Shown in pieces: positions 7,148 through 22,269 of a DNA stretch of 25,194 bases (positions within the stretch are counted from its first letter, which is position 1; every line of letters begins with the position of its first letter). The notes beneath the pieces were generated by a model. The model worked only from the letters and a program-made list of their open reading frames with translations. It was not told where the DNA came from and did not search any database. This DNA comes from a virus, in the IMG/VR virus record IMGVR_UViG_3300040801_003036, positions 1-25,194 of that record, one strand, 5' to 3'. Position numbers and translations under genes: made by a program.

Positions 7148-8041
7148 ATGTGTAAACTTGTTATAGTAGGAAATGGATTTGATAGGGCTCACAACATGAA
7201 AACGACATATTGGCATTTTAGGAGTTTTATTGAAGATAAACATCCTGAAATTCTAGATGTACTAGAACATTATTCATTAAAATCAAAAAACACTTTATGG
7301 AATGACTTTGAGAACAATTTATCAAAGATTGATATAGACAGACTTAGAGATTATTCTCAGATAGCAACAGTAAGAGGCAGAAATGATGATGATTATTATT
7401 CTGGTGAAGATGATGGAGTAGCTAACTTTTTACAAGATGAATTAGACTTTATATATGGGTGGGCTGATCTTGTAGAAGAGTGGATAACTGATTATGTGGA
7501 GTTGCCTGAAGATATGTGTTTCAAAAAAAAACTTTTTAGTGATGATAATTTTTATCTTTCTTTTAATTATACAGACACATTGGAATATACTTATGGAATC
7601 AATGATACTCAAGTAATACATATACATGGAAGAGCTGGATATCCTATAGAGATAATAATGGGACATAGAGATGATAAACATCTAGAAAATGTAAATGAAT
7701 CTCAAGTAGATTATGTATATGATCCAAAAGAAAGCTCTTTAATAAAAGCAGTATTGAAATATTTGAAAGCTTCATATAAAGATGTATATTCAATAATTAA
7801 TGAGTGGGATGTTTATCTCGAACAATATAAGAATGTTAAGGAGATACATATAATTGGATGGTCTCTAAATTTTATAGATATGCCTTACTTTGATAATATT
7901 TTGAGAATTGTACCTCAAAAGAGTCCGATATACATATATTATTATGATGAAGAAGCTAAAAGAAAATTTAACAAGATTTTGTCAAAATATAAAGTTAACC
8001 ATAAAATAATTCTTCTCGACGTGGGTGTTTTGAAGAAATAG
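7148..8041 (+). CDS. abiH: AbiH-family abortive infection protein
   Basis: A 297-residue protein with the AbiH signatures in order: KLVIVGNGFDRAHNMKTTY at 3-21, SFNYTDTLEYTYG at 138-150, HIHGRAG at 158-164, MGHRDD at 171-176 and IHIIGWSLNFID at 233-244. AbiH was described as a lactococcal abortive-infection gene, and family members are widespread in defence regions; the mechanism is not firmly known. It sits between terL and portal, which are normally adjacent, so it is an inserted cargo gene. GAGGTGAG provides the SD. Its TAG stop overlaps the SD of the portal gene. It is probably used by the lysogen to exclude other phages. Confidence 0.88.
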   Translation: MCKLVIVGNGFDRAHNMKTTYWHFRSFIEDKHPEILDVLEHYSLKSKNTLWNDFENNLSKIDIDRLRDYSQIATVRGRNDDDYYSGEDDGVANFLQDELDFIYGWADLVEEWITDYVELPEDMCFKKKLFSDDNFYLSFNYTDTLEYTYGINDTQVIHIHGRAGYPIEIIMGHRDDKHLENVNESQVDYVYDPKESSLIKAVLKYLKASYKDVYSIINEWDVYLEQYKNVKEIHIIGWSLNFIDMPYFDNILRIVPQKSPIYIYYYDEEAKRKFNKILSKYKVNHKIILLDVGVLKK

Positions 8042-13508: not shown

Positions 13509-13695
13509 TGACGATCTAAACATAACAGCAAACATCATCTTTAATCTAGCTCATTTAGGTATATCGATTGAGGACACAAAAGTATTTGATTTAGATACTT
13601 ATTTTGAACTAGTAGAACTAGAAACTAAAGTAATCAAAGAGGCTAATTGTCCAAGGGGAGCTACACAAAAAGATATAGATGCCTTTTTAAACTAA
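13447..13695 (+). CDS. C-terminal T part of the GT chaperone (frameshift product)
   Basis: This frame is +1 relative to the G-like gene and opens at a TTG (13447) without an SD; no ATG occurs before the conserved part NIIFNLAHLGISIEDTKVFDLDTYFELVELE. It is therefore most likely made as a G-T fusion. Candidate slip sites are TTT-C (13467-13470; the same Phe tRNA reads TTT and TTC) and CCC-A (13485-13488); a -2 slip on the A-rich stretch would give the same frame. The T domain recruits major tail protein to the tape measure. Its last bases overlap a terminator stem. Confidence 0.75.
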   Translation: MEKCWVPFKKEKHPDQSQRNSDDLNITANIIFNLAHLGISIEDTKVFDLDTYFELVELETKVIKEANCPRGATQKDIDAFLN

Positions 13696-13704
13696 GGCAT
13701 CTAT
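13675..13704. terminator. Shared bidirectional terminator between converging genes
   Basis: ATAGATGCC (13675-13683) and GGCATCTAT (13696-13704) form a 9-bp stem around 12 bases that contain both stop codons: GT on plus and the GIY-YIG-like gene on minus. T-rich sequence follows on both strands. Confidence 0.55.
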
Positions 13705-14142
13705 TATTTCTTTTACAGTTGTTAAAATTTCTGGATTATGAATTGGGTTTTTCATTCCGTGAGAACCAATAACATTATAACCTTTGTCTAGTAGTTCTCT
13801 TGCTACTAAGTATTCGATAGAGGCAGTTAAGTCTCTAAAAGGGATGTGAGTGCTCATGTTATTTTGCTCGGGATATAAAGGACCAAATGCATACAACTTA
13901 TAATATGAATCTTTTAATGATATTTTAGCTTTCTTCATATTATTCGTTAGTGAATTACTGTGTAGATTTTTACAAAAGTGTGATAACATTCTACTAAAAG
14001 GTGAGCTTGCATGAGGAGATGAACTGTCACCAGTTCTAGCTACATAAAAATATGTTGTGTTGTTATGTAGAATTTTATACGTATATATCCAAAAACCTCT
14101 CTCTATAATTTTACCTGAGAATTCAATATGATATTGATTCAT
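13687..14142 (-). CDS. GIY-YIG nuclease-like protein (accessory)
   Basis: A 151-residue protein, the only sizeable minus-strand gene inside the structural operon. GFWIYTYKI, then YFYVARTGDS, resemble the two GIY-YIG strands (WIY 18-20, YVA 33-35). SPFSRMLSHF provides Arg51 and His55, and SIEYLVARELLDKGYNV gives Glu110 where the family has its catalytic Glu. The second Gly of YIG is replaced by Ala, so activity is uncertain. An AAGGAGG SD precedes the ATG, and a TTTACA/TATATT promoter lies upstream on the same strand. It may be a free-standing homing-type endonuclease or a single-gene cargo. Confidence 0.6.
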   Translation of the reverse strand: MNQYHIEFSGKIIERGFWIYTYKILHNNTTYFYVARTGDSSSPHASSPFSRMLSHFCKNLHSNSLTNNMKKAKISLKDSYYKLYAFGPLYPEQNNMSTHIPFRDLTASIEYLVARELLDKGYNVIGSHGMKNPIHNPEILTTVKEIIDALV

Positions 14143-14162
14143 AATATCGCCTCCTTAAGTTT

Positions 14163-14190
14163 AATATAGCAAAGGTTTTAGGTTTGTAAA
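14163..14190 (-). promoter_or_regulatory. Promoter of the GIY-YIG-like gene
   Basis: Read on the minus strand: -35 TTTACA (14190-14185), a 16-base spacer and -10 TATATT (14168-14163), 20 bases before the ATG, with an AAGGAGG SD in between. Confidence 0.5.
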
Positions 14191-14222
14191 AGAGGGCACA
14201 AACCGATAAACGTAGCATGCTC

Positions 14223-14251
14223 TTGAATCTAATACTCACAAACTATATAAT
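14223..14251 (+). promoter_or_regulatory. Consensus sigma-A promoter of the second HNH gene
   Basis: TTGAAT (14223-14228), a 17-base spacer and a perfect TATAAT (14246-14251), followed by GGAAGGAG and the ATG at 14280. It is divergent from the GIY-YIG promoter. Confidence 0.7.
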
Positions 14252-14279
14252 ATAATTAGATAAAGGAAGGAGTAAAAAT

Positions 14280-14651
14280 ATGGATATTAATGAAGAAACT
14301 GCAAAAAAATTATGGAGATCCAGATATGGTAATGAGGATAATGTTAAAGATTTTACTGGAAAATGGATGTATTTCTATGATTATGGTAAACAAAAAGAAT
14401 TAAGGGAGAGCAAAGGAGGGGAAATGATAGATTATGGTTGGAATATCCACCATATGTATCCTCAAGATTTAGGTGGTACCGATAACAAGAATAATCTAGA
14501 GATTGTTCATTGGGAAACTAATGCTTCTGCATCAAACAAAACTACTTACACGATAGACGGTATAACTTACAGAGTTAGAAAACTCAGTAATGGTCATTAT
14601 GGAATCTTTAATGGTGATGATCGTGTAGATTTTACTATACCGAACTCATAA
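14280..14651 (+). CDS. HNH endonuclease-like protein (accessory)
   Basis: A 123-residue protein. The HNH core is GWNIHHMYPQDLGGTDNKNN (about 53-72) with His57-His58, then NLEIVHWETNASASNKT with His77, Asn81 and Lys87. The zinc-binding CxxC pairs seen in the packaging HNH at 2346 are missing, so this is a different subfamily, closer to colicin/homing-type HNH. The C-terminal part (TYTIDGITYRVRKLSNGHYG) may be a DNA-binding beta unit. It has its own consensus promoter and lies in the G/GT-tape measure junction, suggesting a mobile or homing gene, or a toxin-like nuclease without a visible immunity gene. Confidence 0.7.
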   Translation: MDINEETAKKLWRSRYGNEDNVKDFTGKWMYFYDYGKQKELRESKGGEMIDYGWNIHHMYPQDLGGTDNKNNLEIVHWETNASASNKTTYTIDGITYRVRKLSNGHYGIFNGDDRVDFTIPNS

Positions 14652-14705
14652 CATACTTAGTGATATGTTATATCAGAATATTATATTCATCTATTGATAT
14701 GATTA

Positions 14706-14714
14706 TGATATAAT
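14706..14714 (+). promoter_or_regulatory. Extended -10 promoter of the structured RNA
   Basis: TGATATAAT, a perfect extended -10, lies 55 bases downstream of the HNH stop. The -35 is weak (TTCATC at 14686-14691, 17-base spacer). Expected start is about 14721. Confidence 0.5.
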
Positions 14715-14854
14715 ATTTACAGTAAATAAATTTCTGTAAGACCAAATCATTATTTAAGATACTAGCTCCAGGTGTCAGTTCGATTCTGACATTCACCATC
14801 CCAAAAATAGAGTTTTCTATTAGTTTCACTTTTACTCTTAAGGAGGTAATTGAA

Positions 14855-14914
14855 ATGATAATAGTTTTAGTTACATATTATTTCACTGGAGGAGCTTCTG
14901 GGGAATTGGTGTAA
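14855..14914 (+). CDS. 19-residue ORF inside the structured RNA
   Basis: An AAGGAGG SD (14840-14846) stands 8 bases before an ATG that opens 19 codons for a hydrophobic peptide (MIIVLVTYYFTGGASGELV). Its TAA stop falls in the D-stem/loop of the tRNA-like 5' half. The SD quality suggests real translation, for example a leader peptide whose ribosomes would disturb the tRNA-like fold. It is short enough to be chance. Confidence 0.3.
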   Translation: MIIVLVTYYFTGGASGELV

Positions 14915-14965
14915 TAGGTAGCACGGTAAAAATAGAGAATAGCCCCAGTGAAACCAAAAAGTTAG

Positions 14966-15000
14966 ACACTTATGTCAGTTGACATAGGTGTTTTATTTTG
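14966..15000 (+). terminator. Strong intrinsic terminator before the tape-measure gene
   Basis: ACACTTATGTC and GACATAGGTGT form an 11-bp stem (one G-T pair) with an AGTT loop, followed by TTTATTTTG. It ends the structured RNA and lies about 20 bases before the tape-measure start. Confidence 0.75.
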
Positions 15001-15019
15001 AACCATAGGAGGTGTATAA

Positions 15020-21296: not shown

Positions 21297-21629
21297 ATGG
21301 CGATAATAAAAGAACTAAATACAAAATTTGGGGTGAATGCATCTTATCATCGAATAACTGCATTTAACATAAGCTATTCACAAAAGAAGGTAATAATATG
21401 TGTAGCTTCTTACATTTCAAAAGAAGCTAGAGCGAACATGAACGACCCAATTGAAGAGATAGACATTGAGATTCCAATTGATGATTACAATCAGTTTCTG
21501 GATACGAATCCAATCGAACAAGCATATATTTGGATGAAAGAGAATGTGATTGGATTTGAAGACTCAGTTGATGATTATGATGTGATTGAACCAGTAGTCG
21601 TTGAACAGGAGAGTGATGTCATTGAATAG
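21297..21629 (+). CDS. Small acidic protein downstream of the fibre genes
   Basis: 110 residues, acidic C-terminus (ESDVIE), no membrane segment. The IEEIDIEIPIDDYNQF and EQAYIWMKENV phrases are not ones I can assign. The position between fibres and lysis genes is that of small fibre-assembly or hypothetical proteins. AAGGAAG SD. It overlaps the nucleotidyltransferase gene. Confidence 0.6.
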   Translation: MAIIKELNTKFGVNASYHRITAFNISYSQKKVIICVASYISKEARANMNDPIEEIDIEIPIDDYNQFLDTNPIEQAYIWMKENVIGFEDSVDDYDVIEPVVVEQESDVIE

Positions 21630-22269
21630 TCATGTAAAATTGGTTAGTAATGTGTTCCCAAATGCAAAGGTCCTGTTTATGTATTATTCAGGTTCAAGAG
21701 GTTATGGATATGATGAAGAAGATAGTGATATTGATGTTACTGTTGTTCTAGAAAACTTCAAAGGTTCATTGCATCTACAGTTAGGAAAACTTGATATATT
21801 CGCATTTTCAAAAGATATGTATATCAAAAGACAAAACTTCGATGAAACAGTGATCGATTATTACAAGAGTGCAACTGATGACATTCTGGTTCCTGAAGAT
21901 AAAATTTTGTACCTAAGTCCTGAGTTTGAGGAAACTTACGAGCAACTTAAATCTTTCAATGTGAAACGATTTATTGTGAATCAGATAACGGCTTTGTTAA
22001 ATCATACCAAGATTAGAATGAATATCAGTATGGAACTAAAGTCTCATTATCATTTATTAAGGTATCGTGGAATCTTGGAGCATTATGATCGCACTGGAGT
22101 ATTTGAACTAGTGATAGATGAACCTTGGAGAAGTGAAATGTTGCAATATAAAAAGAACTGGGATAACGAGATTGGGAAATCATACGAAAACAAGTTAGTA
22201 GAAACATTTGAGTATCTAGAGCAGTACAGAGATAGGATGATAATTAATGGATTGGACAAACATTATTGA
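21616..22269 (+). CDS. Pol-beta superfamily nucleotidyltransferase-like protein
   Basis: About 217 residues. YYSGSRGYGYDEEDSDIDVTVV holds the GSxxxG...SDxD signature of minimal nucleotidyltransferases (Gly26-Ser27 and Asp38/Asp40), and LGKLDIFAFS could supply the third acidic residue. It resembles COG3541-like predicted nucleotidyltransferases found in phages. The C-terminal half is helical. Starts at 21616 (ATG) or 21622 (TTG, 10-base offset from AGGAGAG) are both possible. It sits between fibre and holin genes, so a fibre-modifying or host-modifying role is conceivable but unproven. Confidence 0.72.
   Translation: MSLNSHVKLVSNVFPNAKVLFMYYSGSRGYGYDEEDSDIDVTVVLENFKGSLHLQLGKLDIFAFSKDMYIKRQNFDETVIDYYKSATDDILVPEDKILYLSPEFEETYEQLKSFNVKRFIVNQITALLNHTKIRMNISMELKSHYHLLRYRGILEHYDRTGVFELVIDEPWRSEMLQYKKNWDNEIGKSYENKLVETFEYLEQYRDRMIINGLDKHY

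Follow-up and report, generated by a model that had tools for sequence, protein, structure and literature searches.

Locus and cargo slot

The DNA analysed here, called the window throughout, is a stretch of 25,194 nucleotides (IMG/VR record IMGVR_UViG_3300040801_003036, positions 1 to 25,194) from a prophage of Acholeplasma-like bacteria. Relatives of its tape-measure gene were collected from viral contigs and genomes, the host genomes being those of Acholeplasmataceae and related 'Tenericutes'. Between the genes for the tail assembly chaperone and the tape measure lies a cargo slot (13690-15019 in the window). Counted without de-duplication, 93 contigs include 42 in which the slot is nearly empty, with no more than 33 nt, and 51, the window among them, in which it is filled. 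The fillings are very varied, consisting of unrelated genes or micro-cassettes, and many of them have an extended -10 element soon past the chaperone stop codon and a terminator right before the tape measure; genes for defence or superinfection may account for many of the fillings across the relatives. In the window, the slot holds a tRNA-like cassette preceded by an HNH-like gene and a minus-strand ORF. A second contig, L095 (IMGVR_UViG_3300040971_000257), whose tape measure is 78% identical to that of the window phage, bears the cassette at the same place as the only filling of its slot. The features of the window slot are as follows.

13690-14142, minus strand: ORF with no Pfam or PHROG match; homologous DNA in the related locus L002
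14280-14651, plus strand: gene for a small HNH-type protein, Pfam score just below the cut-off; homologue in the related locus L007 at 57.5%
14706-14714, plus strand: extended -10 element TG-A-TATAAT, TGATATAAT, promoter-like by sequence only
14761-14798, plus strand: tRNA 3' half, ACTAGCTCCAGGT, with T arm 14774-14790, 3' acceptor strand 14791-14797 and A73 at 14798; 2 of 39 nt differ from L095
14806-14821, plus strand: linker hairpin A (AATAG/CTATT), 5 of 5 pairs in the window and in L095
14840-14846, plus strand: Shine-Dalgarno (SD) sequence AAGGAGG, 8 nt upstream of ATG, inside a 16-nt stretch identical in L095
14846-14874, plus strand: linker hairpin B, 11 bp, containing the start codon; 11 of 11 pairs in both sequences and in the minimum free energy (MFE) fold
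14855-14914, plus strand: candidate 19-codon ORF MIIVLVTYYFTGGASGELV (L095 version MILILITVYFTGGASGELV), ending within the D arm
14881-14889, plus strand: 5' strand of helix H1, TTTCACTGG, invariant, 9 of 9 pairs in both sequences and in the MFE fold
14900-14925, plus strand: tRNA 5' half, with acceptor strand GGGGAAT 14900-14906, T8, G9, D arm 14909-14924 and G26; differs from L095 at tRNA positions 9 and 17 only
14926-14944, plus strand: invariant stretch GTAAAAATAGAGAATAGCC after the D arm, the same in L095; no anticodon stem by ARAGORN on the un-permuted sequence
14945-14953, plus strand: 3' strand of helix H1, CCAGTGAAA, pairing with 14881-14889
14964-15000, plus strand: intrinsic terminator (14964-14993 predicted), directly before the tape-measure ribosome-binding site; stem kept in L095

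The closer relatives L001, L002 and L003 lack the cassette, so that its distribution is patchy. A scan of viral contigs returned no relatives of the HNH gene. An earlier reading, made from the sequence alone, had placed the element in a phage tail operon; the site is a cargo slot rather than the tail operon proper.

The unit has its own promoter-like element and terminator, as that sequence-only reading had held. Transcripts would be expected to start near 14720, although no convincing -35 was found upstream of the extended -10; TATGNTATAAT is likewise kept in L095, and similar elements begin many cargoes of the slot. One terminator was predicted against 0.4 expected, and its stem carries a C-G to T-A double change in L095. 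A promoter-RNA-terminator cassette forming its own putative transcription unit is thus supported.

Micro-ORF cassettes of another kind occupy the same slot in L012/L013/L081, L094/L131, L090/L124, L116, L084/L122/L123 and L083, with a gap of 237-277 nt. They encode 29-36 aa, with an SD, a terminator and one to three in-frame TGA codons at positions aligned to tryptophan; where L090 and L116 carry TGA, L083 carries TGG, and the overall count is 13 TGA to 1 TGG in six distinct versions. In the loci examined, 4-9 ORFs of at least 100 codons end in TGA, and the micro-ORFs look like micropeptides reading TGA as tryptophan in phages that otherwise use it as a stop. Their start codons vary (ATG/TTG/ATC), which leaves translation uncertain, and a search of the hosts for a UGA-reading tRNA-Trp gave no match, as did the tRNA-Trp(CCA) control.

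Elsewhere in the window, a protein of the AbiH abortive-infection family (Pfam E 4e-41) is encoded at 7148-8041, between the terminase and portal genes, likely a second cargo site. Positions 1232-2359, in the phage early region, hold a gene that resembles S-adenosylmethionine synthetase by eye and matches phrog_1569 (E 4e-133), a phage family with no assigned function. An RlaP/nucleotidyltransferase-like gene (21601-22269; weak Pfam match just above the cut-off) lies near the end of the tail module in most relatives; a link with the cassette was considered and rejected, the gene being widespread in the phage family.

Two tRNA halves in permuted order

The core of the cassette is a tRNA 3' half, comprising a T arm and 3' acceptor strand (14774-14798), followed 101 nt further downstream by a 5' half with an acceptor strand and a canonical D arm (14900-14925). 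The T stem GTCAG/CTGAC is fully paired (5/5, 14774-14778 with 14786-14790) around the loop TTCGATT, and the 3' acceptor strand reads ATTCACC. In the 5' half, a 4-bp D stem (GTGT/GCAC, 14909-14912 with 14921-14924) is accompanied by all of the tRNA residues A14, A15, G18, G19, A21 and G26. T48 could form an A15-U48 Levitt pair. The two acceptor strands pair at six of seven positions in the window, with G3.A70 as the mismatch. The sequence-only reading had described a perfect 5-bp T stem, a canonical D arm and acceptors pairing 6/7 in reversed order about 100 bases apart, and its coordinates for both parts proved exact to the base.

Such a combination is rare in its surroundings. Within the window this is the sole T arm with 5/5 pairs and the sole D arm with at least two G-C pairs. 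A scan of the window together with 96 related loci, 1.83 Mb with both strands counted, for a fully paired (5/5) T arm with a D arm no more than 300 nt away gave two cases, the window and L095, each in permuted order; 1000 simulated windows (first-order Markov) contained none.

In sequence, both halves resemble phage tRNA-Ala. The 5' half is 92.6% identical over 27 nt to the tRNA-Ala of Streptomyces phage Tomas, and is nearly identical to the corresponding part of the tRNA-Ala genes of Tomas and Aeromonas phage Akh-2, with the same acceptor strand GGGGAAT; the Akh-2 3' half ends ATTCTCCA, compared with ATTCACCA in the window and ATTCCCCA in L095. The Tomas and Akh-2 genes have normal order, an anticodon arm and U70, whereas position 70 is A in the window and C in L095. 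The G3.U70 pair is the identity element of alanine tRNA, and it is absent from both sequences, being replaced by G.A and G-C, respectively.

Conservation in a second phage

The window and L095 are 81% identical over 317 nt of the cassette. The T arm and D stem are the same in both, changes in the D half are confined to positions 9 and 17, which vary among tRNAs, and the 101-nt spacing is kept without an indel. The acceptors differ at one position only (14795, tRNA position 70, where L095 has C in place of A), and this raises the pairing from 6/7 to 7/7. This bears on the acceptor covariation that the sequence-only reading had proposed to examine: the mismatch is repaired in L095, but two sequences were compared and the change is a one-sided repair, not a two-sided compensation.

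Across the two halves and the enclosing 9-bp helix H1, 4 of 113 positions differ, against 17 of 80 in the linker (Fisher p = 2e-4), and the flanking genes are only 72-78% identical. The 74-nt block of the D arm and H1 has two differences, the fewest among all 74-nt windows in the 11.4-kb alignment. Because the halves and H1 differ less than the linker and flanks, both halves look selected at the RNA level, and the earlier claim that they belong together gains from this homologue. Since a second, different phage keeps the arrangement almost unchanged, the cassette is apparently a functional RNA rather than scrap, and one whose kind we have not found described.

Further members were sought in several ways, and two are known, the window and L095. 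DNA patterns for the T arm, D arm and post-D stretch returned only the L095 contig among 2.9 M viral contigs; BLAST of phages and plasmids gave ordinary tRNAs, chance matches or nothing, and whole-element BLAST of 160 host-order genomes gave only short chance pieces. A covariance model, R1, searched over 97 sequences and the 160 genomes, likewise returned two members only. A weak R1 match, L164, was discarded as lacking tRNA features, and a match in Pseudoalteromonas phage Pq0 proved to be an ordinary tRNA-Gly.

Linker, micro-ORF and competing helices

The linker between the halves holds an SD and a 19-codon ORF, and a 9-bp helix, H1, encloses the 5' half; the sequence-only reading mentioned none of these. 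From its start codon the ORF reads across the 5' strand of H1 and on into the 5' half, where its final codons consist of the 5' acceptor strand and the leading half of the D stem and its stop lies within the D arm. It is the sole SD-led ORF; it precedes and overlaps the 5' half, after which in-frame stops follow. Its codon changes between the window and L095 are mostly non-synonymous, though conservative. Hairpin B keeps its pairing despite four differing positions (G.U to A-U and back).

The acceptor pairing and H1 cross, so the two can coexist only as a pseudoknot. In nested folds, H1 is favoured over acceptor pairing, the margin being 10 kcal/mol for the window and 4 for L095. The acceptor duplex itself is predicted to be weak in the window (-2.6 kcal/mol) compared with L095 (-9.7). 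For an L095 segment ending at the D arm, and therefore without the 3' strand of H1, the fold with the acceptor closed has almost the same predicted energy as the alternative (-40.1 vs -40.7). The whole unit is more stable than its dinucleotide shuffles (z -3.1), the terminator accounting for part of this.

Relation to known RNAs

ARAGORN found no tRNA or tmRNA, a tRNA in normal order (RF00005 or ARAGORN) was not detected, and no Rfam family matched, riboswitches included. No anticodon arm could be recovered in the window or L095; on un-permuted joins, ARAGORN gave inconsistent, join-dependent anticodons with U33 and a stem missing. Of the permuted-tRNA covariance search that had been suggested earlier, model R1 recovered the two sequences, and ARAGORN, Rfam and the permuted-tmRNA model RF04321 gave no match.

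Circularly permuted tRNA genes have been reported in six unicellular algae and one archaeon (PMC3978253). The cassette shares with them the upstream 3' half, the acceptors that pair across the intervening sequence (7/7 in L095) and the intact T and D arms. It differs in that it lies in a bacterial phage, gives no complete cloverleaf or predicted mature tRNA once un-permuted, shows no anticodon arm, has no bulge-helix-bulge junction that we noticed, and carries an SD and ORF in its 101-nt intervening sequence. To our knowledge, no permuted tRNA-type gene exists in bacteria or their viruses outside tmRNA, and we know of no splicing route of the permuted-tRNA type in bacteria. Nor did a literature search of incomplete coverage turn up a permuted tRNA-like RNA in any phage, tmRNA aside.

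Permuted two-piece tmRNA (RF01849-RF01851, RF04321) occurs in three bacterial groups and also in phages (PMC9004378). It resembles the cassette in its permuted gene and in a tRNA-like acceptor and T arm without an anticodon arm, and its processing by tRNA enzymes is a known route. The cassette, unlike permuted tmRNA, has a true 4-bp D stem and no tag frame after the 5' half, and RF04321 (gathering threshold 47 bits) gave no match in the window and at best 7.5 bits on the L095 contig, elsewhere on that contig. A permuted tmRNA was rejected on the D stem and the missing covariance-model match. An attachment-site fragment was also rejected, the site lying inside the tail module and neither half occurring in 160 host-order genomes.

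Two further RNAs offer partial parallels. The TLD-only tmRNA of mycobacteriophage DS6A comprises little beyond the tRNA-like domain of tmRNA (PMC4131195, PMC11915505), and a molecule of the DS6A kind is a strong tmRNA inhibitor whether or not it can be charged (PMC4131195). Like it, the cassette is a phage RNA cut down to a tRNA-like top half and a possible decoy; unlike the DS6A RNA as described, it is permuted, has a D arm and loops out an ORF. The yjdF riboswitch is a tRNA-like mRNA domain controlling translation (PMC9142559), with a tRNA-homologous D-loop/T-loop elbow within the mRNA. The cassette has elbow residues and an SD-led ORF as well, with no Rfam riboswitch match, but yjdF is in normal order, upstream of its ORF and ligand-responsive, whereas the cassette halves flank and overlap the ORF.

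The RNA is not a functional tRNA, because it lacks an anticodon arm and matches neither tRNA, permuted tmRNA nor any Rfam family; it is a tRNA-derived, circularly permuted tRNA-like RNA, since G3.U70 is replaced and the anticodon arm is not recoverable. The option of a tRNA mimic or regulatory RNA, which the sequence-only reading had left beside that of a tRNA, is the one that these results favour.

Proposed function and alternatives

Our preferred reading, tentative at a probability of roughly 0.38, is that the unit is an autonomous RNA cassette (an 'RNA moron') whose permuted tRNA-like RNA acts as a cis switch around the micro-ORF. The halves would meet in the transcript to form an acceptor/T-arm stack and a D-T elbow, with no anticodon arm and the 101-nt linker looped out. 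Because the ORF and the permuted fold draw on the same nucleotides, translation and folding would be mutually exclusive, and for that reason the fold could act as a switch. Once formed, it would stop the ribosome, or be cut by RNase P before 14900 and by tRNase Z after 14798, which would take the ORF stop codon away; if ribosomes or H1 won, a small hydrophobic peptide would be made. The overlap of the ORF with the 5' half is plain from the coordinates; folding, cleavage and any regulatory effect are inferred.

Consistent with the cis switch are the conservation of the halves and H1, the 7/7 acceptor of L095, changes at tRNA-variable positions only, the exact SD, the kept start-codon hairpin, the lone filling of the L095 slot and the near-equal acceptor energy before the 3' strand of H1; the yjdF precedent (PMC9142559) is also counted in its favour. 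Counting against it are the comparison of two sequences, the one-sided acceptor change, the favoured H1, the weak acceptor of the window and the non-synonymous ORF changes. A variant that we consider rather improbable is processing of the permuted mimic in the manner of a pre-tRNA, with RNase P and tRNase Z cutting out the loop between the acceptor ends; what remains would be a tRNA-like body in two pieces, and a short, stop-less mRNA with a strong ribosome-binding site would be released.

The main rival to the cis switch, although unlikely, is a trans-acting decoy of the DS6A type, in which the permuted top half would bind SmpB, EF-Tu, RNase P, the CCA enzyme or a tRNA nuclease and the ORF would be incidental. 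The missing anticodon arm and the absence of G3.U70 in both sequences suit a mimic that must not decode, the unit has its own promoter-like element and terminator, and the DS6A-like RNA provides a precedent for tmRNA inhibition (PMC4131195). A decoy leaves unexplained, however, the conserved SD, the start-codon hairpin and the exact overlap of the ORF end with the D arm, and the true D stem and the failure against RF04321 are unlike tmRNA.

Almost on a par with the decoy, and also unlikely, is a micropeptide cassette (type I toxin-like or a superinfection factor), in which the hydrophobic 19-aa peptide would be the product and the tRNA pieces a stabilising or regulatory UTR that need not meet. 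The slot of other phages holds promoter-hairpin-SD-micro-ORF-terminator cassettes, and the SD is conserved here, but the most conserved nucleotides lie outside the ORF or at its end, silent positions included, and the complementary acceptors and intact elbow residues are not accounted for. Less probable again is a tape-measure leader or attenuator, with ORF translation setting H1 or acceptor pairing and terminator read-through. It would make use of the short SD-led ORF, helices that exclude one another and a terminator lying 20 nt upstream of the tape-measure gene; yet the terminator holds the same position behind unrelated cargo, and most relatives lack the cassette, their tape measure lying 11-33 nt after the chaperone.

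That the halves are decayed fragments of two unrelated tRNAs, for instance what is left of the two inner halves of a tandem pair, was the refuting case named by the sequence-only reading, and we regard it as very unlikely. A T arm followed by a D arm is indeed the tandem order, and all 49 viral-contig pattern matches look like tRNA arrays, 45 of them with both partners called by ARAGORN. When acceptor strands of separate phage tRNAs are combined, 4.3% of the combinations pair at 6/7 or better and 0.5% at 7/7; for GGGGAAT the figures are about 10% and about 2%. A coincidental match between unrelated halves is thus conceivable though improbable, and it would leave unexplained the conservation in L095 of both halves above the flanks, of their spacing and of the acceptor pairing, as tandem remnants would decay like neutral DNA with no shared constraint. 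A functional circularly permuted tRNA gene, its transcript circularised or decoding in two pieces, shares the gene order and acceptor pairing of known cases (PMC3978253), but is highly improbable given the missing anticodon arm in both sequences, the inconsistent un-permuted anticodons and folds in which no bulge-helix-bulge motif was noticed.

The locus is a compact natural test case for the action of bacterial RNase P and tRNase Z on acceptor stems whose ends are joined by a long loop rather than free. If the excision variant is true, the phage would possess a device that links the processing of tRNA with the stalling or rescue of ribosomes. With a permuted tRNA mimic that is under selection and overlaps an ORF, phages would be shown to rework the topology of tRNA into a regulator or decoy.
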